DNA from: Asticcacaulis aquaticus
GTDB taxonomy: Bacteria > Pseudomonadota > Alphaproteobacteria > Caulobacterales > Caulobacteraceae
Length of the DNA: 64,000 bases
Assembly: GCF_028550415.1 (NCBI RefSeq)
Contig: NZ_JAQQKX010000015.1
Span: forward strand, 1-64,000
Reading direction: 5' to 3'
Under the pieces are notes generated by a model, which saw nothing but the letters and a program-made list of their open reading frames with translations, had not been told where the DNA came from and did not search any database. How positions within the stretch are numbered: the stretch's first letter is position 1; every line of letters begins with the position of its first letter. A program made the translations under genes and the position numbers. Shown piece after piece: positions 14,204-50,635 of the stretch.

Positions 14204-15166
14204 TCAGCGCTTAACCGGCAGGTTTTTCACGAAATCGGCGATGAGCGCCGCGCATTCGTCGGCCATCAGGCCCGTTTCGACCTCTATCCCGGCAGCTTTC
14301 AGCCGCTCGGTGCCGATGTGCGAGGCATAGGGCGACGGGTCTTCGCAGGCGAACACGACCCGTTTGACCTTGGCCTCGACCAGACGCTGCGAGCAGGAAC
14401 AGGCACCATTCGAGCGCTCGCCACACGGTTCCAGCGTGACATAGGCAGTCGCACCTTCGGCCTCACCGCCCAACGCCGCCAATGCGGCCTCTTCGGCATG
14501 AGGCCGCCCGCCGTCACCGGTCGCGCCCTCGGCGATGACCACGCCATCACGGACGATGACGCAGCCGACCGAAGGGTTGGGCACGGTTTTGCCCAGTTGA
14601 GAGAGACCGAGGCCAAGAGCGCGCTGCATGAACGTCGAGTCCGTGGTCCTCCCCCTCACCCGGCCCGTTGGGCCACCCTCTCCCTCAAGGGAGAGGGATA
14701 AATAGACATTCCCTCTCCCTTGAGGGAGAGGGTGGCGTCCAATCCGTGAGGATTGGATGACGGGTGAGGGGGACGCCGGATGAAATTGAAACTCACGCGA
14801 GTCAACGCGCTCGAAAATTCGCCCGTCGATAATCGCTGATAAGGTCTCCAGAACAGTATCCAGCCCGTTCAACACATCTGCATACCAGAACCGTGCAATG
14901 GACCAGCCTTCGCTCACCATGAAAGCATCGCGAACAACGTCATGCGCGGAATCGATATGCTGGCTGCCATCGACCTCAACGACAAGTCGTTTATCCCAGC
15001 AGGCAAAATCCGCGAAGTAGGGCCCAATCGGTTGCTGACGGCGAAATTTCAGATCCTGAAACTGACGGTTACGCAGACACCACCACAGTCGCTCTTCAGC
15101 CGTGTTGTCGACCTGCCGCAAAGATCGTGCACGCTTAACATGCGAAGGTGTCGGTGTGTCTGACAT
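14204..15166 (-). CDS. DUF559 endonuclease-like domain fused in frame to RibD-like deaminase
   Basis: One open frame of 320 residues joins two unrelated parts. Residues 1-120 form a DUF559 (Vsr-like nuclease fold) domain: FRRQQPIGPYFADFAC, KRLVVEVDGSQH and GWSIARFWYADVL. Residues about 130-178 (HPLPQGRGNVYLSLSLEGEG) are translated from a palindromic repeat. From Met 180 (ATG at 14629) to the end is a deaminase resembling the N-terminal half of RibD: TVPNPSVGCVIVRDG, zinc ligands in PHAEEAAL and LEPCGERSNGACSCS, and CEDPSPYASHIGTERLKAAGIEV. The RibD reductase half is absent. The deaminase may be translated separately from 14629. Whether a fused protein is made is unknown. Confidence 0.75.
   Translation of the reverse strand: MSDTPTPSHVKRARSLRQVDNTAEERLWWCLRNRQFQDLKFRRQQPIGPYFADFACWDKRLVVEVDGSQHIDSAHDVVRDAFMVSEGWSIARFWYADVLNGLDTVLETLSAIIDGRIFERVDSREFQFHPASPSPVIQSSRIGRHPLPQGRGNVYLSLSLEGEGGPTGRVRGRTTDSTFMQRALGLGLSQLGKTVPNPSVGCVIVRDGVVIAEGATGDGGRPHAEEAALAALGGEAEGATAYVTLEPCGERSNGACSCSQRLVEAKVKRVVFACEDPSPYASHIGTERLKAAGIEVETGLMADECAALIADFVKNLPVKR
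14647..14773. repeat. Inverted pair of family B palindromic repeats inside the fusion ORF
   Basis: The left unit reads CCCCCTCACCCGGCCCGTTGG and then CCCTCTCCCTCAAGGGAGAGGG. The right unit is roughly its reverse complement and ends GGGTGAGGGGGAC. Together they form a 127-base near-palindrome. It lies between the DUF559 and deaminase segments and contributes about 42 codons of low-complexity linker without a stop. Confidence 0.8.
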
Positions 15167-15167
15167 A

Positions 15168-15213
15168 TCCCCCTCACCCGGCCCGTTGGGCCACCCTCTC
15201 CCTCAGGGAGAGG
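15168..15213. repeat. Family B palindromic repeat upstream of the DUF559 start
   Basis: CCCCCTCACCCGGCCCGTTGGGCCACCCTCTCCCTCAGGGAGAGG-type sequence starts 1-2 bases before the DUF559 ATG (on the complementary strand). It matches the left unit of 14647-14773 over about 40 bases, so the DUF559 gene is bracketed by family B copies. Confidence 0.75.
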
Positions 15214-15225
15214 AAATTTTAAGCG

Positions 15226-15963
15226 TTACGCCTCTTTCGGGACGCCGTGTTCGGCCAGGACCGGCACCGGATTGGCACGGCCCTCGTCGAGATACTTCGC
15301 CGCCAGAGGCTTCAACGCCGCGTCCAGTTCGATGACCAGCGGGTTCGAGGTCGGCACCTCGATCTCAAGAATCTCCGCCTCACCCAGATTGAACAAAAGC
15401 TTGATAATAGCGCGGATCGAATTGCCGTGCGCCGCCACCAGCACCGTATCCCCCGACTTCAGGGCCGGCGCGATATCGCTTTCCCAGAACGGCAGGACGC
15501 GGTCGAGTGTCGTCTTCAGGCTTTCGGTCACCGGCAGGGTCGCGCCCGTATAGCGGCGGTCCTTGGCGAAGGCGTATTCGCTTTCGGCGCTCAGATCGGG
15601 CGGCGGCACGTCGTAGGACCGACGCCAGATCTTGACCTGATCCTCACCATGCAGGGCCGCCGTCTCGGCCTTGTCGAGGCCCGTCAGACCGCCATAGTGC
15701 CGCTCATTCAGACGCCAGTCCTTGATCACCGGCACATAGGATTGACCCGCCGCATCGAGCGCCAGATTGCAGGTGCGGATAGCGCGCGTCAGGACCGAGG
15801 TGAAGGCGCGCGAAATCTCAAGCCCTTCGGCCTTGATCAGTTCGCCGCCCTTGATCGCCTGCTGCTCGCCCTCGGCGGTCAGGTTGACATCGACCCAGCC
15901 GGTAAAACGGTTTTCGAGGTTCCACTGGCTCTGGCCGTGGCGAAGCAGAATGAGTTTGGGCAT
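15226..15963 (-). CDS. gpmA: 2,3-bisphosphoglycerate-dependent phosphoglycerate mutase
   Basis: The 245-residue enzyme interconverts 3- and 2-phosphoglycerate. The phospho-histidine motif [17 protein letters not shown] is at the N-terminus, with [16 protein letters not shown] near residue 85 and the second catalytic His in [15 protein letters not shown] near 180. Length is normal for the cofactor-dependent family. It is one of several glycolytic genes in the window but lies on the opposite strand to gap-pgk-fba, in a minus-strand run that also holds the deaminase fusion and MOSC genes. Confidence 0.94.
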
Positions 15964-17975: not shown

Positions 17976-18014
17976 TCCCCCTCACCCCAGCCCTCTCCCT
18001 CAGGGAGAGGGGGT
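17976..18014. repeat. Family B palindromic repeat
   Basis: TTCCCCCTCACCCCAGCCC is followed by a CTCTCCCTCAGGGAGAG hairpin between the prfA and glutathione S-transferase genes. It matches the units at 14647-14773 and 15168-15213. Confidence 0.65.
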
Positions 18015-36127: not shown

Positions 36128-36288
36128 TATACCTCCCCAGTTTACTGGGGAGGGGGACCGCGCCCGGAGGGCGTGGTGGTGGGGGTTCTTGCTTTCTTAC
36201 AGCAATGGACGTTGAACCTCCGCAAGACACCCCACCACCGCTCGCTCTGCTCACGGTCCCCCTCCCCGCGTAAGCACAGGGAGGCATA
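36128..36288. repeat. Long palindromic repeat, family A
   Basis: TATACCTCCCCAGTTTACTGGGGAGGGGG-type left end (hairpin CCCCAGTTTACTGGGG) and CGGTCCCCCTCCCC right end flank CCACCACCGCTCG and GGTGGTGGGGGTTCTTGC. The GGTTCTTGCTT stretch is shared with 1193-1361. It lies between ydbL and the terminator. Confidence 0.7.
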
Positions 36289-50447: not shown

Positions 50448-50635
50448 ATACCTCCCCACATAGTGGGGAGGGGGACCGCACGACGCGCGAAGCGCTAGCT
50501 GCGGTGGTGGGGGCCTGCGCTGTCGAAGCCTCACACTCATCGGGCCAGTCGATTTGTTTGCGTCATCGACGCAAGGCCCCCCTCCGTCTCGTCGCTTCGC
50601 GCCGATCCACCTCCCCCAGTAAACTGGGGGAGTAG
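50448..50635. repeat. Long palindromic repeat, family A
   Basis: The left end ATACCTCCCCACATAGTGGGGAGG is followed by GGGACCGCACGACGCGCGAAG, which is identical to part of 1193-1361. The right end is GCCGATCCACCTCCCCCAG and TAAACTGGGGGAG. The element lies between the convergent carotenoid oxygenase and rmuC genes. Confidence 0.75.

Follow-up and report, generated by a model that had tools for sequence, protein, structure and literature searches.

The window, that is, the 64,000-nucleotide stretch of Asticcacaulis aquaticus DNA that we analyzed, contains an open reading frame that joins a DUF559 nuclease to a RibD-type deaminase through a linker encoded by repeats. The features of this locus are:

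14204..15166, minus strand: fused open reading frame (320 amino acids), identified from the open reading frame and profile matches, for a DUF559 nuclease, a repeat-encoded linker, and a RibD-type deaminase
14207..14629, minus strand: deaminase part (N-terminal half of RibD), whose homologue adjoins gpmA in 25 of the 25 genomes of the genus that were searched
14650..14698, minus strand: outer 3' family-B unit, palindrome to palindrome with the inner unit and translated within the linker
14710..14773, plus strand: inner 3' family-B unit, inverted relative to the 5' unit, with its palindrome at 14711-14732, a long hairpin link, and a gene-facing tail at 14761-14773
14834..15136, minus strand: DUF559 (PF04480) domain, with the 15 invariant positions present and a predicted fold related to I-Bth0305I and Vsr
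15168..15213, minus strand: 5' family-B unit of the cassette, with its palindrome outward (core 15197-15211), a TGG-hairpin link, and the gene-facing tail GGGTGAGGGGGA
15226..15963, minus strand: gpmA (phosphoglycerate mutase-like, PF00300), the upstream flank, which defines occupied versus empty sites

In a search with domain profiles, PF04480 matched residues 11-111 of the 320-residue protein (E = 1.1e-30), and the score of 106.1 bits against a curated cutoff of 20.6 places the protein in DUF559. PF00383 (deaminase) matched residues 174-273 (E = 1.4e-16). The search reported no reductase domain in this reading frame, and TIGR00326 (RibD, from NCBIfam) aligned residues 180-314 to positions 1-134 of its 343, with a score below its cutoff. 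This agrees with the preliminary description of the locus, which proposed an in-frame fusion to a RibD-like deaminase that lacks the reductase half.

Along the minus strand, gpmA is followed by a family-B repeat, the start codon, DUF559, an inverted pair of repeats that serves as the linker, and the deaminase. The two units that adjoin the nuclease are mutually inverted, with their palindromes outward and their G-rich tails (GGGTGAGGGGGA) inward; this tail is common to all three units. Copies of family B thus bracket the gene, as described, at 15168-15213 and at the inverted pair (14650-14698 and 14710-14773). Some boundaries needed correction: the pair begins at 14650 instead of 14647, and the repeat at 15168 does not include the start codon (15166-15164), which is just beyond it rather than 1-2 bases inside. 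The reading frame does cross the inverted pair, but the DUF559 domain, which had been thought to end there, stops at 14834, about 60 bp short.

The palindrome TCTCCC-N0-14-GGGAGA occurs four times in the window, and three of these are at the locus. Shuffled sequences averaged 0.08 and none of 100 reached four, so chance is an unlikely source. A 126-nt probe from the locus gave 125 BLAST matches (E ≤ 10) in the host genome, which indicates that the family-B repeat is a genome-wide family. An extra family-B palindrome lies away from the locus, at 17994-18008. The window also contains units of another family, family 2 (core GGGGAGGGGGACCGC, with at most one mismatch), at 1211-1341, 36147-36267, and 50465-50479, and two of these places are inverted pairs about 100 bp apart. 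We rejected a known RNA family at the locus (none of 10 Rfam matches at E ≤ 1 reached the gathering score) and a known defense system (the sole PADLOC match, a weak one to dCTPase, falls in the deaminase part, and DUF559 had none).

Among the 25 species of the genus, DUF559 lies between gpmA and the deaminase in 15 and is absent from 10. The 10 empty sites support the idea that a repeat-flanked cassette was inserted upstream of the deaminase gene. A single repeat had been predicted at such sites; instead, the two genes abut, with no repeat between them at any of the 10. All DUF559 copies from this site group in a single clade that spans the genus (support 100/98), which rejects a recent insertion in this strain only. 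Occupied sites are scattered across the host tree, with seven changes, a number that was as low in 147 of 500 shuffles. The conflict between the DUF559 tree and the host tree at this site is not significant (AU test, p = 0.21 and 0.13), so recent movement at the window site is unsupported, and we rejected the claim that tree conflict demonstrates homing. Most simply, the site has seen one old insertion and several clean losses. The 24 indels that separate G042 from G487 over about 100 kb include the cassette and several repeat units, each found in just one of the two genomes. Of the 11 indels between G497 and G485, two bear repeats: one is the cassette, and at the other some repeat occurs on both sides.

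DUF559 is in frame with the deaminase at 13 of the 15 occupied sites (P = 3e-5 if each were free, but the copies are related by descent), and at one site (L226) the start of the domain is out of frame. Because most occupied sites are in frame and the copies form one clade, the fusion is old. It is also probably incidental. It is most readily explained as a side effect of insertion into the close junction between gpmA and the deaminase, with the in-frame state kept so that the deaminase is still made. A functional partnership of nuclease and deaminase was rejected: 10 of the 25 species have the deaminase without DUF559, and the linkers vary. At two occupied sites (L229 and L232), no repeat-like linker was seen by eye. 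The preliminary description had weighed against the cassette the possibility that the fused reading frame is conserved across distant genera with no repeat inside it; these two sites partly show this, but within one genus, with no distant genera.

The host genome has three DUF559 genes: the window gene, L002, and L003. All three are bracketed by inverted repeats, from three different families. L002 is bracketed by family 2, which has a like design in other letters (CCTCCCCATC-GATGGGGAGG with GGTGGTGGGGTTTC), and L003 by a further family of like design (CCTCCCCCGG-CCGGGGGAGG with ACGGAGGGGGGC).

We scored bracketing by local alignment between the 400 bp on one side of each DUF559 domain and the 400 bp on the other, with a threshold of 18. 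Across the phylum, 161 of the 397 Pseudomonadota genomes searched contain DUF559. Inverted flank matches were found at 25 of 30 loci in our set from the host genome and the best matches in Caulobacteraceae, and at 12 of 29 loci in the set of best matches from the phylum. We also considered 60 further regions: 20 from Caulobacteraceae (including six from one genome and four at the gpmA site of the window gene), 20 from other Alphaproteobacteria, and 20 from other members of the phylum. The flanks matched in inverted orientation at 42 of these 60 regions, as compared to 12 of 3961 sliding windows of the same regions, which are mostly coding DNA. In any orientation, the counts were 43 of 60 (14, 16, and 13 of 20 in the three groups) and 82 of 3961. 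ParE control loci gave 0 of 25 inverted and 2 of 25 in any orientation. The expectation that DUF559 genes elsewhere would lie between such repeats was therefore borne out. Inverted bracketing was absent at the other 18 of the 60 loci, and no flanking pair was found at four f52 loci (L069, L071, L076, and L083).

A set of named loci, the best 80 of 571, reached ten phyla. Of these, 75 were usable, and L351 was also left out because of a run of Ns, which leaves 74. The flanks matched in inverted orientation at 52 and in any orientation at 61, versus 10 and 49 of 3981 sliding windows. By phylum, within these best 80 of 571:

Pseudomonadota: 46 usable, 34 inverted, 38 in any orientation
Chloroflexota: 10 usable, 4 inverted, 7 in any orientation
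Thermodesulfobacteriota: 6 usable, 4 inverted, 4 in any orientation
Melainabacteria: 3 usable, 3 inverted, 3 in any orientation
Planctomycetota: 2 usable, 2 inverted, 2 in any orientation
Rokuibacteriota, FCPU426, and Wirthbacteria: each 1 usable, 1 inverted, 1 in any orientation
Nitrospirota and Doudnaibacteriota: each 1 usable, 0 inverted, 1 in any orientation
Phylum not given: 2 usable, 2 inverted, 2 in any orientation

Three of the any-orientation matches (L292, L293, and L299) did not look palindromic by eye. Loci near contig ends were left out before counting: the first DUF559 set lost 3 of 33 (L039, L048, and L055), the GIY-YIG set 1 of 30, the ParE set 5 of 30, the Y1_Tnp set 7 of 30, and the named loci 5 of 80.

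Loci of Y1_Tnp (PF01797), which we had intended as a positive control, were inverted in 3 of 23 cases and matched in any orientation in 6 of 23; because PF01797 mixes IS200-type transposases with RAYTs, it is of limited use for this purpose. GIY-YIG loci, chosen as a negative control, were inverted in 9 of 29 cases (10 of 29 in any orientation), with a different type of repeat, so the association with repeats may not be peculiar to DUF559. GIY-YIG may be another nuclease family that has repeats of its own, and the result fits a wider class of such nucleases. The GIY-YIG loci that are bracketed by another palindromic repeat (for example, GTCATTCCCGCGAAAGCGGGAATCCAG) are L153, L157, L166, L169-L171, L175, L176, L179, and L180. 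Overall, the bracketing of DUF559 genes by repeats is real and general.

The repeats also have a regular architecture. Among family-B units in the host genome (L001 and L004-L033), 40 of 51 are paired with an inverted tail no more than 120 bp away, at 22-31 nt in 35 of them. The arms of these doublets are unequal in 15 of 19: one link is 13-20 nt and the other is 3-4 nt (L018, L021, L024, and L029 are the exceptions). In the window units, the tail GGGTGAGGG fits the arm GGGAGAGGG as an antiparallel third strand of the purine motif, and other telling pairs of arm and tail are GGGAGAAG with GGGAGTAG, AGAGAGGG with TGAGTGGG, and AAAGAGGG with TTAGAGGG. The third-strand fit was 0.885 for cognate tails versus 0.788 for noncognate tails (p = 0.003, n = 25 distinct purine arms). 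A perfect fit was found for 15 of 29 distinct arms in the antiparallel direction versus 3 of 29 in the parallel direction; some of these arms are not true repeats.

Judged by sequence, the repeats share the design of intrastrand-triplex (PIT/TM) elements, which consist of a hairpin and an antiparallel third strand (Holder et al. 2015, PMC4666352). The parts of that paper on which we draw report that all inverted PIT pairs in E. coli (5 of 5) join a type A unit to an unlike unit of type B; in the doublets described here, a unit with a long link is joined to one with a short link. Presence or absence between related strains is another likeness. The same parts report that triplexes formed in vitro on single strands of E. 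coli TM oligonucleotides, that DMS footprinting detected no stable triplex in vivo, and that triplex-motif loci show instability in E. coli. They report no functional class of gene that flanks PIT elements, whereas the repeat families described here go with clades of DUF559. The word "nuclease" is absent from the text of PMC4666352, even inside other words.

This coupling can be seen on a single contig, in G047, where DUF559 genes that are sisters are flanked by the same repeat family (L056/L093, L094/L095, and L096/L097/L098); L093, L096, and L098 have the repeat on one side only. L002, from another genus, has the same repeat family as L096-L098. More broadly, protein similarity predicts the similarity of the flanking repeats, both across 6973 pairs from different genera (Mantel r = 0.29, 0 of 500 permutations) and across 927 pairs from Caulobacteraceae (r = 0.39, 0 of 500 permutations). 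Copies at the gpmA site in the genus, other than the window's, were left out of this comparison. There are exceptions: L002 and L003 are sister proteins with dissimilar flanks, the close proteins L034 and L099 reach a flank score of only 16.5, and L056 and L096, which are not sisters, reach 19.5.

We then counted two repeat families, DUF559 clade 2, and other DUF559 genes in 99 Caulobacteraceae genomes; the cutoff for clade 2 (108 bits) was picked after the scores were seen and does not fall in a wide gap. Across all 99 genomes, the partial rank correlations of each family with its own group versus the other group were 0.55 versus 0.22 and 0.61 versus 0.19. Within genera, family 2 was correlated with clade 2 (r = 0.32, 11 of 5000 permutations) but not with other DUF559 (-0.01), whereas the TCTCCC family was correlated with other DUF559 (r = 0.36, 1 of 5000 permutations) but not with clade 2 (0.00). 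Repeat family and DUF559 clade are thus associated: at the within-genus level, either family follows a single DUF559 group and is uncorrelated with the other. Some genomes have many repeats though no DUF559 was detected, both TCTCCC palindromes (97 in G001, 159 in G081, and 36 in G080) and family-2 cores (42 in G080 and 29 in G036).

As to the enzyme itself, 15 positions are invariant in a 44-sequence alignment (A2) that includes the window protein. The nearest solved structure by sequence is 3hrl, a DUF559-like protein (E = 3.5e-39). The second, and the best outside DUF559, is 3r3p, the domain of the homing endonuclease I-Bth0305I (E = 5.3e-4), which belongs to the EDxHD class. Three enterotoxin chains (E of about 0.08-0.09) were taken as chance matches. 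A predicted model (mean pLDDT 85) was matched by Foldseek to 3hrl, to 3r3p (E = 4.5e-4), then to mitoribosomal proteins, and more weakly to Vsr (E = 0.012).

A DUF559 protein of Caulobacter crescentus, VsrA, has been studied; according to the sections of PMC12907096 that we used, it is required for the SOS response of cells without the methylase ScmA, it is induced in the DNA damage response, its gene is not linked to that of the methylase, and its authors propose a role in mismatch repair. The LexA box of vsrA is placed about 133 bp inside the annotated gene (PMC12907096), so the annotated start may be too far upstream. Of 141 loci that we scanned, seven, all from Caulobacteraceae (L042, L045, L052, L054, L055, L056, and L093), have an SOS-type box (GTTC-N7-GTTC) 33-65 bp before the DUF559 domain, and one more (L097) has it in reverse. 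In L056, the box overlaps the likely start codon.

We think it probable that DUF559 enzymes are the dedicated nucleases of PIT repeats, much as RAYTs are for REP sequences, with an unrelated enzyme. The window gene would then be the nuclease-bearing member of a repeat family. The dispersed element would be a doublet of about 110 bp (palindrome, link, and tail; a spacer of about 25 nt; then tail, link, and palindrome), and the DUF559 cassette would be such a doublet with the nuclease gene in place of the spacer. In each unit, the palindrome would fold into a hairpin and the tail may lie along it as a third strand, giving an intrastrand triplex. Each DUF559 clade would recognize its own repeat family, most likely as a hairpin or triplex on single strands during replication or repair, and would nick or cut at the folded repeat. 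Repair of the break would then copy, convert, or remove repeat units and, rarely, the cassette, so that the moving entity would be the unit or the doublet. Such a process would resemble the action of RAYT on REP/REPIN, with an enzyme of the Vsr/homing-endonuclease fold.

The likeness to REP/REPIN and RAYT (TnpAREP), or "REPtrons," had already been suggested for this locus, and it holds in anatomy (inverted flanking repeats) and in cognate coupling. In both, one nuclease gene lies between inverted copies of its own dispersed palindromic repeat, there are dispersed inverted doublets, and each of several repeat families has a gene to itself (as given for REPtrons in portions of PMC3733652). In contrast, the DUF559 enzyme is PD-(D/E)XK/Vsr-like rather than HUH/Y1; its repeats have the tail GGGTGAGGGG or similar (GGGTGAGGGGGA in the window units) rather than GTAG; the tail fits as the third strand of a triplex; and the arms are mostly unequal. 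PF01797 has no match in the host genome, and the window enzyme belongs to PF04480. The DUF559 system would work like REP/RAYT but is not a member, as it has no Y1 transposase and no GTAG tag.

Of the alternatives, the one that survives best, though we consider it unlikely, is that DUF559 serves the host as a structure-specific nuclease that removes or repairs triplex or hairpin damage at PIT repeats, with the bracketing due to repeated co-copying or to regulation. The SOS-type boxes at the seven Caulobacteraceae loci (and the reversed one), the damage induction of VsrA described in parts of PMC12907096, and the instability of triplex-motif loci in E. coli described in parts of PMC4666352 are all consistent with this. 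However, a role in repair alone does not explain the bracketing or why each repeat family goes with one clade in a genome, and repeats are more numerous where the cognate gene is present, while a clean-up enzyme should lower their number.

Less likely still is a free-standing homing endonuclease that cuts empty allelic sites, with the repeats as landing pads or by-stander homology arms. I-Bth0305I is related to the window protein in sequence and fold, and each gene is present or absent at one site; the DUF559 clade at the gpmA site occupies 15 of 25 species that are scattered over the host tree. But no intron or intein was seen at the DUF559 locus, the tree discordance is not significant, bracketing also occurs in many other genomes and phyla, and homing leaves the genome-wide numbers of the repeats that bracket the gene unexplained.

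It is improbable that DUF559 acts in very-short-patch repair, nicking T:G mismatches beside methylated cytosines as Vsr does, with the repeats a coincidence. The predicted fold is related to that of Vsr, if more weakly, VsrA is itself a DUF559 protein, and (in the sections of PMC12907096 cited above) VsrA causes the SOS response of C. crescentus without ScmA. At the window locus, the gene adjoins gpmA and a pentapeptide-repeat gene and no methylase, but vsrA is also unlinked to its methylase. The link that we see is to repeats rather than to a methylation motif, and mismatch repair does not explain the coupling to cognate repeat families. Finally, a passive association, with DUF559 genes tolerated in repeat-rich intergenic DNA, would account for repeats in genomes without detected DUF559, but it is very improbable given the ParE loci (0 of 25 inverted), the sliding controls (0.3%), and the double dissociation of clades and repeat families within genera.

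PRK09767 (an NCBIfam model of the DUF559 family) matches the window protein below its cutoff. YcjD of E. coli K-12 is annotated as a DUF559 protein, and its gene lies between fabI and sapF. An exact match to the PIT core lies about 180 bp past the 3' end of ycjD, and the end of ycjD itself is overlapped by a second PIT-like unit, which strain S1-SRB-02-B has in full. No PIT unit was seen on the 5' side of ycjD, so its bracketing is one-sided. On that side, a long inverted repeat (CACCTCATTCTGACA ... TGTCAGAATGAGGTG) overlaps the start codon (L385:6759-6801, from K-12).

PF04480 had no match in one E. coli control genome, which implies that the species is polymorphic for ycjD; a 601-bp ycjD stretch was covered to 80% in 3364 of 5426 E. 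coli genomes. In two strains without ycjD (L386 and L387), fabI is followed by genes for a TetR regulator and RND efflux, in the place that ycjD and sapF take in K-12. We sampled 60 records down the ranking, many of them near relatives, and left out one partial record (H100). The 37 records with ycjD had a median of 23 PIT-matching places (range 15-32, with the ycjD place counted), as compared to 6 (range 2-20) in the 22 without. Sampled E. coli with ycjD hold more PIT elements, in a contrast that is confounded by phylogroup.

We tentatively suggest a broader reading, which is rather less secure than the dedicated role itself: DUF559 and its cognate triplex-forming repeats may constitute a widespread class of minimal mobile element that moves when a nuclease of the Vsr fold cuts a triplex-folded repeat, with nuclease-bearing and nonautonomous forms. 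The PIT elements of E. coli might then be nonautonomous members, and YcjD their nuclease. In the open-license literature of PubMed Central, we found no paper that pairs DUF559 or ycjD with "intrastrand triplex," and DUF559 occurs together with "palindromic" only in PMC8861277 and PMC9454445. No paper on DUF559 or COG2852 there is on repeats by its title, and neither the titles nor the starts of the abstracts, among the matches listed, link DUF559 to repeats, which does not prove absence.

A dedicated, co-diversifying nuclease would give the unexplained PIT repeats an owner, and it would offer a role for DUF559, a small predicted DNA-cutting enzyme whose role is unsettled. It also suggests a rereading of work that treats DUF559 proteins as mismatch repair enzymes. 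Because E. coli K-12 has both ycjD and PIT elements, the question can be tested there. More generally, such a nuclease would show that an unrelated enzyme may have given rise to the lifestyle seen in REP/RAYT.
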